A DNA stretch of 64,000 bases from Leifsonia shinshuensis (GTDB lineage: Bacteria > Actinomycetota > Actinomycetes > Actinomycetales > Microbacteriaceae). A program made the position numbers and the translations under genes. This document shows positions 61,555 through 63,622 of this stretch, piece after piece; positions within the stretch are counted from its first letter, which is position 1, and every line of letters begins with the position of its first letter. The notes beneath the pieces are model-generated. The model ran no database searches. It saw nothing but the letters and a program-made list of their open reading frames with translations, and was not told the DNA's origin. The stretch is taken from contig NZ_JAVDVK010000001.1 of NCBI RefSeq assembly GCF_031456835.1, positions 3,720,001 to 3,784,000 of the forward strand, in the 5' to 3' direction.

Positions 61555-61863
61555 ATGCTGGTGGCATTCTCAGTAGCTCCGAGCGGGGGCGAAGGCGCGG
61601 ACGCGTCGGTGCACGACGCGGTCGCCGCGGCGGTGCGCGTGGTGCGCGAGTCGGGCCTCCCGAATCGCACGGACGCGATGTTCACGACCATCGAGGGCGA
61701 GTGGGATGAGGTCTTCGACGTCGTCCGCCGGGCGACCGAGGCGGTGGGGCGCTACGGGACGCGGGTGTCGCTGGTTCTGAAGGCGGACATCCGCCCCGGG
61801 TACTCGGGTGAGCTCGACGGCAAGGTGCAGCGCCTGGAGGCTGCGCTGGAGTCGGGCGACTGA
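61555..61863 (+). CDS. thiamine-binding (MTH1187/YkoF-like) protein
   Basis: 102 residues. LVAFSVAPSGGEGADASVHDAVAAAVRVVRESGLPNRTDAMFTTIEGEWDEV matches the small MTH1187 family, ferredoxin-like folds that bind thiamine or similar. AGGAGG is 6 bases before the ATG. It ends 2 bases before the next gene, which encodes a membrane protein. Confidence 0.85.
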   Translation: MLVAFSVAPSGGEGADASVHDAVAAAVRVVRESGLPNRTDAMFTTIEGEWDEVFDVVRRATEAVGRYGTRVSLVLKADIRPGYSGELDGKVQRLEAALESGD

Positions 61864-61864
61864 C

Positions 61865-62125
61865 GTGGACGTCTACACGCTGGTCAGCCTCTTCTTCGGA
61901 CTCCTCGTCGCGTTCGGGCCGTTCCTGGCGATCGTGGCGGTGCTCGTCGGAGGGCTGCTGGTCGGCTGCGTGATCGTGGCGATCGTCGGAGCCGTGCGAA
62001 CCCGCGTCGCACCCCCCGAGGAGACGCGCGACGTCGACGTGGCCGAGTTCTTCGAGGAGCAGACCGCGGCGGCGGCCGCCGCGGCGGCGGCGCCGGCCGC
62101 GCCTGGCGGCGAGCCACGCGCCTAG
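61865..62125 (+). CDS. small membrane protein, unknown
   Basis: 86 residues from GTG 61,865. Two hydrophobic helices (TLVSLFFGLLVAFGPFLAIVAVLV and GGLLVGCVIVAIVGAV), then an acidic stretch EETRDVDVAEFFEEQ and an Ala run (nine alanines). I do not recognise a family. Probably [14 protein letters not shown] the thiamine-binding gene. Confidence 0.7.
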   Translation: MDVYTLVSLFFGLLVAFGPFLAIVAVLVGGLLVGCVIVAIVGAVRTRVAPPEETRDVDVAEFFEEQTAAAAAAAAAPAAPGGEPRA

Positions 62126-62151
62126 GCGCGCCCCGCCGGCGTCTGTCGCGG

Positions 62152-62210
62152 GACATTCGTGCCGAATGTCGCCTCCGCGCCGGGGTTTCGCGACATTCGG
62201 CACGAATGTC
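62152..62210. repeat. inverted repeat 1: two ATTCGTGCCGAAT hairpins 40 bp apart
   Basis: GACATTCGTGCCGAATGTCGC (62,152-62,172) and its exact complement GCGACATTCGGCACGAATGTC (62,190-62,210) form a 21-bp stem with a 17-base spacer. Each arm is itself an 8-3-8 palindrome centred on TGC/GCA. Centres 62,161 and 62,201. Confidence 0.95.
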
Positions 62211-62226
62211 GGCCCGGGAGCGCGCG

Positions 62227-62283
62227 CGATTTGTGCCAAATCGCGGTTATGGGGGCGCTATAACCGCGATTTGGCACAAATCG
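62227..62283. repeat. inverted repeat 2: two ATTTGTGCCAAAT hairpins 40 bp apart
   Basis: The 24-base arm at 62,227-62,250 (CGATTTGTGCCAAATCGCGG, then TTAT) and its complement at 62,260-62,283 pair perfectly, with a 9-base loop GGGGGCGCT. Each arm again holds an 8-3-8 palindrome. Centres 62,235 and 62,275. It sits just upstream of the promoter of the MFS gene. Confidence 0.95.
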
Positions 62284-62317
62284 TGGGGCGGGGTGGGCGG
62301 GTCGAAACGATTCGATA

Positions 62318-62323
62318 TAGGGT
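62318..62323 (+). promoter_or_regulatory. leaderless-type -10 box (TAGGGT)
   Basis: TAGGGT ends 6 bases before the GTG at 62,330. The end of inverted repeat 2 is about 35 bases upstream, close to where a -35 would be. Confidence 0.5.
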
Positions 62324-62329
62324 AGGCGG

Positions 62330-63622
62330 GTGACCCCGCTTATCGACGGGCCGACGCAGATGTCGTCGGCCCGTATTCGTCTTGCGCTGCTGGCGCTCGC
62401 CCTCGGTGGCTTCGGCATCGGATCCACCGAGTTCGTGGCGATGGGCCTGCTGCCCAACATCGCCCACGACCTGCTGCCGCAGCTGTACGCCGCGTCCCCG
62501 AGCGACGCCAACGCGCAGGCGGGGTGGATCATCTCGGCGTACGCCCTCGGGGTCGTGGTCGGCGCACCGACGATCGCCGCGTTCGCCGCGCGGTGGCCGC
62601 GCAAGAAGCTGCTGCTGTGGCTGCTCGTCGCGTTCACGCTCGGGACGGTCGCCTCGGCGGTGGCCCCCACGTTCCAGCTCGTGATGCTGGCGCGCTTCGT
62701 CTCGGCGCTGCCGCACGGCGCCTACTTCGGCATCGCGTCCCTGGTCGCCGCGTCGCTGATGGGCCCGGGCAAGCGCGGCCGCGGCGTGGCGTTCGTGCTG
62801 TCGGGGCTCACCATCGCGAACGTCATCGGCGTGCCGACCATCACCTGGATCGGCCAGCACAGCGGCTGGCGCATCGCCTACCTGGTGGTCGCCGCGCTGT
62901 TCGCCCTCACGTTCGTGGCGGTCGCGTTCCTGGTGCCGTGGCAGGCGGGCGACGCCCGCGCGACCGTCCGGAACGAGCTGAAGGCGTTCACGCGGCTGCA
63001 GGTCTGGCTGGCACTGCTGATCGGCGCCGTCGGGTTCGGCGGCTTCTTCGCCGTCTACACGTACATCGCGCCGATCGTGACCACGATCACCGGGATGCCG
63101 GAGGCGACCGTCCCGCTCGTCCTCGTCCTCGCGGGGCTGGGCATGACGGTCGGCAACATCATCGGCGGACGCGCGGCCGACCACAGCGTCCCGCGCAGCA
63201 TGCTGCTGTTCTTCGCCATCCTGCTCGTCGGGCTGGCCGCGCTCTGGCTCACCGCATCCACCGTCGCCGGTCTGCTCATCTCGGTGTTCGTGGTGTCGGG
63301 CGCGTGCTCGGCGCTGTCGCCGACCATCCAGACCCGGCTGATGGATGTGGCGCGCGACAGCCAGTCGATCGCCGCGGCGCTCAACCACTCGGCGCTCAAC
63401 ATCGCGAACGCCGCCGGGGCGTTCTTCGGCGGTCTGACGATCGCCGCCGGGCTGGGCTACCTGTCGCCGGTCGTGGTGGGCGGGCTGCTCGCCATCGGCG
63501 GCATCCTGCTGGCGCTGATCTCGTTCGGAATCGACCGGTCGCGCATCCGCCGCGGGGTGGTCACCGGGTCGGTCGCGGCCCAGCGGCCGCTTCCGGAGCC
63601 GGTCTCCGCGCCCGTCGACTGA
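62330..63622 (+). CDS. MFS transporter, DHA1 (AraJ-like, 12-helix)
   Basis: 430 residues, twelve predicted helices. FGIGSTEFVAMGLLPNIAHDL at the N-terminus is the AraJ/arabinose-efflux signature, and YALGVVVGAPTIAAFAARWPRKKLLLW holds motif A. AQAGWIISAYALGVVVG and NHSALNIANAAGAFFGGLTI are further family parts. Exports sugars or drugs by proton antiport; substrate unknown. GTG start supported by the -10 box; an ATG 30 bases in is an alternative. Large inverted repeats lie just upstream. Confidence 0.9.
   Translation: MTPLIDGPTQMSSARIRLALLALALGGFGIGSTEFVAMGLLPNIAHDLLPQLYAASPSDANAQAGWIISAYALGVVVGAPTIAAFAARWPRKKLLLWLLVAFTLGTVASAVAPTFQLVMLARFVSALPHGAYFGIASLVAASLMGPGKRGRGVAFVLSGLTIANVIGVPTITWIGQHSGWRIAYLVVAALFALTFVAVAFLVPWQAGDARATVRNELKAFTRLQVWLALLIGAVGFGGFFAVYTYIAPIVTTITGMPEATVPLVLVLAGLGMTVGNIIGGRAADHSVPRSMLLFFAILLVGLAALWLTASTVAGLLISVFVVSGACSALSPTIQTRLMDVARDSQSIAAALNHSALNIANAAGAFFGGLTIAAGLGYLSPVVVGGLLAIGGILLALISFGIDRSRIRRGVVTGSVAAQRPLPEPVSAPVD

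Follow-up and report, generated by a model that had tools for sequence, protein, structure and literature searches.

A REP-like, genus-specific family of paired palindromes held in exact 40-bp register at gene ends of Leifsonia

The window, i.e., the whole stretch of 64,000 nt that was analyzed, comprises bases 3,720,001-3,784,000 of the 3,788,128-base single-contig genome of Leifsonia shinshuensis (hereafter the host). Near its end, a small gene and a putative MFS transporter gene in the same direction are separated by a gap of 204 bases (62126-62329), the length given in the original prediction. This gap holds two elements of 53 bp each, as identified by core matches, a repeat search, and an element listing. 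Gene positions here and below rest on a home-made codon-usage gene caller. The features are as follows.

61865-62125, plus strand: small upstream gene (home-made gene call), with its stop codon 29 nt upstream of element 1
62152-62210, no strand: perfect inverted repeat around element 1, with 21-nt arms at 62152-62172 and 62190-62210
62155-62207, plus strand: element 1, 53 bp, C/G type, consisting of core 62155-62167, linker 62168-62174, middle 62175-62187, linker 62188-62194, and inverted core 62195-62207
62227-62283, no strand: perfect inverted repeat around element 2, with 24-nt arms at 62227-62250 and 62260-62283
62229-62281, plus strand: element 2, 53 bp, T/A type, consisting of core 62229-62241, linker 62242-62248, middle 62249-62261, linker 62262-62268, and inverted core 62269-62281
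62330-63622, plus strand: downstream transporter gene (putative MFS), with its start 48 nt 3' of element 2

All four cores match the consensus without mismatch, at 62155-62167 (+), 62195-62207 (-), 62229-62241 (+), and 62269-62281 (-), and their centers lie at the predicted positions (62161/62201 and 62235/62275). One correction concerns the outer arm of the fourth core, which reads CGT rather than CGC. Folded as RNA, the inverted repeat around element 1 reaches -45.7 kcal/mol (z = -7.7) and that around element 2 reaches -50.9 kcal/mol (z = -11.0). A known RNA family was rejected as an explanation, as the five weak Rfam matches over 61800-62700 all fell below their gathering scores.

The transporter gene has DNA matches in all 28 genomes of the genus, and 26 of the 27 relatives share at least 79% identity over ~1.2 kb. 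Just 5' of this gene (62302-62320) lies a palindrome, TCGAAACGATTCGA, followed by TATAG; the 14-mer recurs in 26 of the 27 orthologous Leifsonia loci and thus looks like a conserved operator or promoter. The leader ATCGACGGGCCGACGCAG occurs unchanged in 10 of the 27 orthologues. A scan for canonical intrinsic terminators (a GC-rich stem followed by a T-run) gave no match at the two elements; its sole match was a GC-rich hairpin with a weak T-run at 62346-62374, which overlaps the start of the transporter gene (alternative start ATG at 62360) and could be an attenuator.

The two pairs in the window are copies of one family that is dispersed in the host and its relatives. The host genome (3.79 Mb) contains 190 cores at no more than one mismatch (80 forward and 110 reverse), compared with a single match for a reversed-pattern control. 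This difference, together with the presence of cores across same-genus relatives, led us to reject a one-off or chance origin. In a search of 60 genomes (the host and 59 relatives, namely, 27 of the same genus and 32 others), at least one core was found in 26 of the 27 same-genus relatives, with a range of 0-463 cores and five genomes having five or fewer; the 32 relatives outside the genus had no more than 15 each, and the controls gave up to nine. In this search, G015, G020, and G010 were rich in cores, and G004, G007, G012, G018, and G023 were poor in them. A fixed-gap inverted-pair pattern run over named genomes returned 68 stretches, every one from Leifsonia (L. aquatica DSM 20146 and H1aii, L. 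virtsii, species C5G2, and species 71-9). Another search, with a pattern blind to the three central bases, covered 398 genomes of the bacterial family; this sample lacks G004, G007, G018, and G023, all core-poor in the 60-genome search. The pair was present in all 10 Leifsonia genomes sampled with 1-348 copies each, including 94 in the host, 348 in G015 (the most in the sample), and one with one mismatch in G012, and 6 of the 388 other genomes had one imperfect match each. Along the host genome, exact clusters are ~0.1 Mb apart, and no exact core was listed between ~2.64 and 3.37 Mb; this 0.73-Mb gap may not be real because not all one-mismatch cores were listed.

The elements share a rigid architecture. 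The core is a 13-bp quasi-palindrome with the consensus ATTYG-NNN-CRAAT, and 83 host and 81 relative elements align without gaps in the order core, linker, middle, linker, core (13-7-13-7-13, i.e., 53 nt). In 37 fetched stretches plus the window, which together cover 160 of the 190 host cores, 155 cores have a partner (at most three mismatches) at exactly 40 bp, and the off-register partners comprise two at 39 and two at 41. The exact 40-bp spacing that had been noted for the window is a property of the family, largely independent of spacer sequence. The outcomes that the original prediction named as refuting, i.e., a motif confined to this locus or a variable spacing, were checked for, and the element was not refuted. 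It is also kept regardless of orientation: among 85 host pairs, 34 are inverted, 41 are same-oriented, and 10 have other central bases or loops. The -+ orientation is rare (one of 77 host pairs at 40 bp), such that the core center may not be free, or ancestry may shape orientation. At 10.5 bp per turn, 40 bp corresponds to 3.8 helical turns, which is not a whole number. The middle can also be a core, as in some elements of L. virtsii, C5G2, and G009, where three palindromes then lie 20 bp apart; the listed elements of G026 and G008 have a 15-nt palindrome as their middle, with the total length still 53.

Arrays were observed among the relatives. One (L216; G015 C10:13852-14100) has seven cores in an unbroken 40-bp tandem array. 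Another (L222; G013 C1:572542-573000) has six elements in which the C/G and T/A types alternate, and these look as if they had multiplied as a larger tandem unit. This compound array is a good internal control for the register: the core distance is 40 within all six elements, while the distances between elements are 43, 39, 41, 36, and 41.

To avoid choosing by core, orthologous sites were sought by their flanks (17 sites in three genomes). Among 20 partner places fetched, 15 were compared after viewing, and five were left out for having no element in line with the flanks (L206, L207, L210, L212, and L215). Alignment across the element succeeded for 12 of the 15 pairs (all but L079/L208, L103/L198, and L083/L197); these 12 represent eleven source elements, as L104 was used twice, and one of them (L132/L200) was found partly via the element itself. 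In these 12 pairs, the conserved core columns differ at 7 of 192 positions (3.6%), compared with 13/48 (27%) for the C/T-G/A columns, 16/72 (22%) for the central bases, 23/168 (14%) for the linkers, 37/156 (24%) for the middle, 92/414 (22%) for the nearest 20 flanking bases, and 294/3237 (9%) for the farther flanks. No indel occurs within the elements and 17 occur outside; when only 25-nt flanks are considered, the counts are 0/636 inside and 11/559 in the flanks. A second set of pairs found by pattern, which is biased to conserved cores, gave 0/272 differences in the conserved core columns and 0 indels inside versus 26 outside (0/901 versus 16/850 with 25-nt flanks); 17 of these 18 pairs were used, as L093/L108 did not align. 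Replacement of elements by new full-length copies does not account for this pattern, given that the spacers have diverged and the cores have stayed alike. The core and the spacing look protected by selection, and the loss of damaged copies could be an added cause of core conservation.

The original prediction proposed that pairing rather than sequence seems conserved, which our results do not support in that form. The coupling that prompted the idea is real. Core positions 4 and 10 are either C/G or T/A, and the corresponding element positions 4/10/44/50 are uniformly of one type in 74 of 83 host elements, whereas shuffled columns gave a mean of 10.4 and a maximum of 22. In Leifsonia sp. 71-9, these positions are uniform in 18 of 23 elements (shuffled mean 4.0, maximum 11), and each of the five all-T/A elements of this species carries a different spacer, which means that they did not arise by recent copying from each other. 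Furthermore, one orthologous pair (L072/L124, flanks 95.8% identical) shows the compensating switch in place, with the four coupled bases being the only differences within the 53 and the 27-nt spacer identical. Elements with mixed states at the coupled positions occur as well, which means that the four bases can change step by step. Paired arms would fit the coupling, as would a preference for a symmetric site. A long hairpin and separate short hairpins predict the same coupling, and double changes are thus mostly uninformative.

Conservation of pairing in place of sequence does not hold for the core as a whole. Eight of the 13 core positions (1-3, 5, 9, and 11-13) are nearly invariant, as is also evident from the seven differences among orthologues, and the spacing is kept in the 41 same-oriented host pairs, whose three central bases cannot pair across a long stem. 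With nearly half of the host pairs same-oriented, no single perfect long stem is possible there, and a perfect long hairpin is not required. The outer cores are complementary to each other at their three central positions in only 54, 40, and 43 of 83 host elements.

The spacers, which had been described as unrelated, are unrelated only in part: across the family as a whole, one 7-nt linker tends to complement the other. In the relatives, for which the fetched pairs are inverted only, four of the five genomes show covariation in the middle stem (the exception is H1aii, z = 0.7), and the linkers covary only weakly within genomes (z = 1.4 to 2.5). The middle-stem covariation in relatives and the linker covariation over the whole set speak for hairpin pairing. 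In the host, only the same-oriented C/G-type elements show more linker pairing than shuffles (z = 2.7), and the other three subfamily classes do not exceed them; most host linker pairing therefore reflects subfamily consensus.

The elements are concentrated at gene ends. Convergent gaps make up 21 of the 42 gaps with an element in the host and 40 of the 72 in the relatives, with four relative elements at stretch ends set aside, and the odds ratio for convergent gaps is ~10 in both sets when compared with other gaps of at least 60 nt in the same stretches. Divergent gaps are avoided (three in the host and five in the relatives; odds ratio 0.1 for the pooled sets). One of 83 host elements falls inside a gene call, which is itself weak. 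In the relatives, the median distance to the stop codon is 13 nt, with many elements at 9-13 nt; in the host, it is 95 nt, as arrays there displace copies away from the gene end. These are short palindromic repeats with many copies, mainly extragenic, that lie between convergent and unidirectional genes near 3' ends; in the broad sense, they are REP elements.

The original prediction also raised a double terminator, which is plausible from the position behind stop codons, although no U-tract is present. In its plain form, this explanation states that the element acts as RNA, as a strong, protein-free hairpin without a U-tract that terminates transcription in both directions and has spread by duplication. 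The location agrees with this, and five inverted elements fold far better as RNA than their shuffles (z = -7 to -11). Hairpins without poly-U have been reported as intrinsic terminators in the portion of PMC8355165 considered here. Moreover, another perfect stem of at least 12 bp is present in 10 of 37 element-free convergent gaps and in 0/37 when shuffled. However, pairing alone does not demand the eight nearly fixed core bases, and the two same-oriented elements folded do only slightly better than shuffles (one with z = -1.5 as RNA and z = -1.0 as DNA, the other with z = -3.2 as DNA), with the register still kept. Among convergent element gaps with a stem of at least 8 bp, a T-run beside the longest stem is absent in all 13 from the host and in 31 of 32 from the relatives. 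We consider this explanation unlikely.

Other hairpins at gene ends were noticed by eye. An unrelated long hairpin replaces the element in the relative at two orthologous sites (L061/L131 and L135/L210), other long hairpins free of T-runs lie upstream of the transporter in L149, L153, L155, and L156, and long hairpins without a T-run lie at gene ends in convergent gaps of L044 and L080. Some of these other hairpins are alike between genomes, with CGAGG...CACGT...GTTG arms or AACACGCCG...CGGCGTGTT arms, and are perhaps further repeat families.

The elements come and go between strains. Among the 27 orthologous transporter loci, two elements are present in the host, one in G019, three cores in G003, and a degenerate element in G014, and in the other 23 no pair was found within the 330-420 bases examined. 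Of four sites inspected closely, three are filled in L. aquatica DSM 20146 and empty in H1aii, and the fourth is filled in both. These patterns indicate that no single site is essential. At L207 and L206 of Leifsonia sp. 71-9, the flanks are ~1.3-1.6 kb apart, although their counterparts in L. aquatica DSM 20146 surround a single element, such that other DNA was gained or lost there.

Multiplication of the family within genomes is supported indirectly, by species-specific linkers and loops, tandem arrays, and filled and empty sites, and appears to proceed by a mechanism without the standard RAYT transposase. The search for a mobilizer, which also bears on a possible MITE of a known transposon, covered four enzyme families. 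The RAYT domain (Y1 transposase, PF01797) was found in none of the 28 Leifsonia genomes, with a positive control in 5 of 14 named genomes, and RAYT was rejected as the mobilizer. IS110/IS1111 (PF02371) occurs in 14 of 28 genomes, which include neither the host nor G015, the richest genome, and was likewise rejected, as was reverse transcriptase (PF00078; 2 of 28 genomes). For IS91-type Y2 (PF04986), there was no match in the 28 genomes, and the controls were silent as well, which makes that result uninformative.

A purely selfish, REPIN-like repeat is one alternative explanation. According to this explanation, the copying limits of a hypothetical mobilizing enzyme that recognizes the two palindromes set the core and the spacing, recent copying makes the copies similar, and they are tolerated only behind genes without benefit to the host. 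The signs of multiplication listed above, the wide range in core number among the 27 same-genus relatives, and the avoidance of divergent gaps all agree. On the other hand, orthologous copies keep their cores while the spacers diverge, which recent whole-element copying would not produce, and RAYT and IS110 show the absences just described. Additionally, no transposase was recognized next to the 14 gaps with elements that were inspected (in 11 loci plus the window), where the neighboring genes, judged by eye from their first 70 residues, encode ordinary cell proteins, and no clean target duplication was found at the three sites empty in H1aii compared with DSM 20146. Taken together, we regard a purely selfish repeat as rather unlikely.

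Each genome tends to have its own typical linkers, central bases, and core type. These species-typical variants resemble the DUS dialects of Neisseriaceae, as presented in the part of PMC3630211 considered, and could suggest a DNA-uptake-like signal that is paired at gene ends and doubles as a terminator. The cores number hundreds rather than thousands and are nearly always paired in a fixed register, which makes such a signal highly improbable.

Within limits, these results show that the element is REP-like and specific to the genus, that it comprises two sites, and that it is under selection where genes end. A predicted DNA-binding protein probably holds the two dyads in register, and the element possibly ends or insulates transcription, as a U-less two-way terminator or insulator. 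In the mechanism that we propose, each core would be a two-fold symmetric site read by a predicted symmetric DNA-binding protein, and the two cores, or in some species three at 20-bp intervals, would need a fixed register for a higher-order complex to form. Such a complex at gene ends may block or insulate transcription from both sides, and the very stable hairpin of inverted copies may help the blocking. In favor of this reading are the exact register, the protection of core and length in orthologous copies, the coupled positions, the preference for convergent gaps, the unrelated hairpins at two orthologous sites, and the negative RAYT search in 28 genomes. Against it are the covariation that points to hairpin pairing, the rarity of the -+ orientation, the non-integral number of helical turns, the gain and loss of elements between strains, and the eight of 20 partner places that dropped out of the substitution count. 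The reading as a whole, i.e., a REP-like 3'-end family with a protein-read two-core register that serves as a U-less two-way terminator or insulator and spreads independently of RAYT, has in our judgment an even chance of being correct.

REP elements are common, and the reason for their persistence is disputed, with selfish copies and useful parts as the two views. For the Leifsonia family, orthologous copies reveal which features are protected: the exact length is kept, as are eight of the 13 core positions, and the spacer is left to drift. With this difference, recognition can be told apart from pairing more readily, and a testable binding protein is predicted.

Among known systems, the REPINs of Pseudomonas fluorescens are REP doublets linked to RAYT transposases, with a preferred spacing of 71 or 110 bp, according to the sections of PMC3116915 used here. 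As described in those sections, they resemble the Leifsonia elements in being extragenic doublets of palindromes that can be inverted and form hairpins, occur in hundreds per genome, and have preferred spacing. Unlike REPINs, the Leifsonia elements have no RAYT domain in the 28 genomes, their spacing is single-valued and free of indels in the compared pairs, and nearly half of the host doublets are same-oriented (41 of 85, with 34 inverted).

The text of PMC3733652, as far as it was available to us, allows a comparison with two REP superfamilies. It reports REP dimers that may differ in spacer sequence yet share a similar length, some with complementary ends, conv-REPs mostly within 20 bp of 3' ends (shown for two species), and CGTC REPs that lack a dedicated transposase; Leifsonia is not named in that text. 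CGTC REPs are similar to the Leifsonia elements in their AT-starting stem, their arrangement as dimers, spacers that are comparable in length and in some families complementary at their ends, 3'-end location, and absence of a dedicated transposase. The stem is 8-9 bp with a loop of 4-5 nt in CGTC REPs, compared with 5 bp and 3 nt in Leifsonia. GTAG REPs are likewise palindromic extragenic repeats with dimers and a 3'-end location, and the Leifsonia elements differ from them in lacking the GTAG tag and RAYT. Among 656 core sides, the tags of the CGTC superfamily abut the stem in two (CGTC), zero (TGTC), and one (CCTC) cases, or 16, 0, and 4 when read outward, and GTAG abuts it in none (six read outward); GTAG or CTAC lies within 8 nt of 7 of 328 cores. 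Membership in either superfamily was rejected because the tags do not abut the cores.

Poly-U-free terminators, as characterized in the consulted part of PMC8355165, are also hairpins close behind stop codons, whereas the Leifsonia elements all belong to a single dispersed sequence family whose core and register are fixed. In the table of PMC12306157, RepRanger predicts REP-like palindromes in three Actinomycetota species, none of them Leifsonia. Palindromes, MITEs, and hairpins are not mentioned in the accessible portion of PMC2516522, which concerns IS elements of Leifsonia xyli. A search of the open-licence literature found no description of this family, which is weak evidence of absence given that some search terms were broad. 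It is possible, if somewhat doubtful, that this is a gene-end element not described before, in which two (or three) 13-bp dyads in exact 40-bp (20-bp) register are used by a dedicated Leifsonia protein to mark or insulate convergent units, and which would have species dialects (ATTCG/ATTTG, center TGC/CGC) that track changes in the protein and would spread without a classical transposase. The kind of element, i.e., REP-like, is known. This family departs from the known systems in lacking the GTAG and CGTC tags as well as the standard RAYT enzyme, in the third palindrome at 20 bp, in an exact register that is independent of orientation and of perfect pairing, and in the protection of its cores in place.
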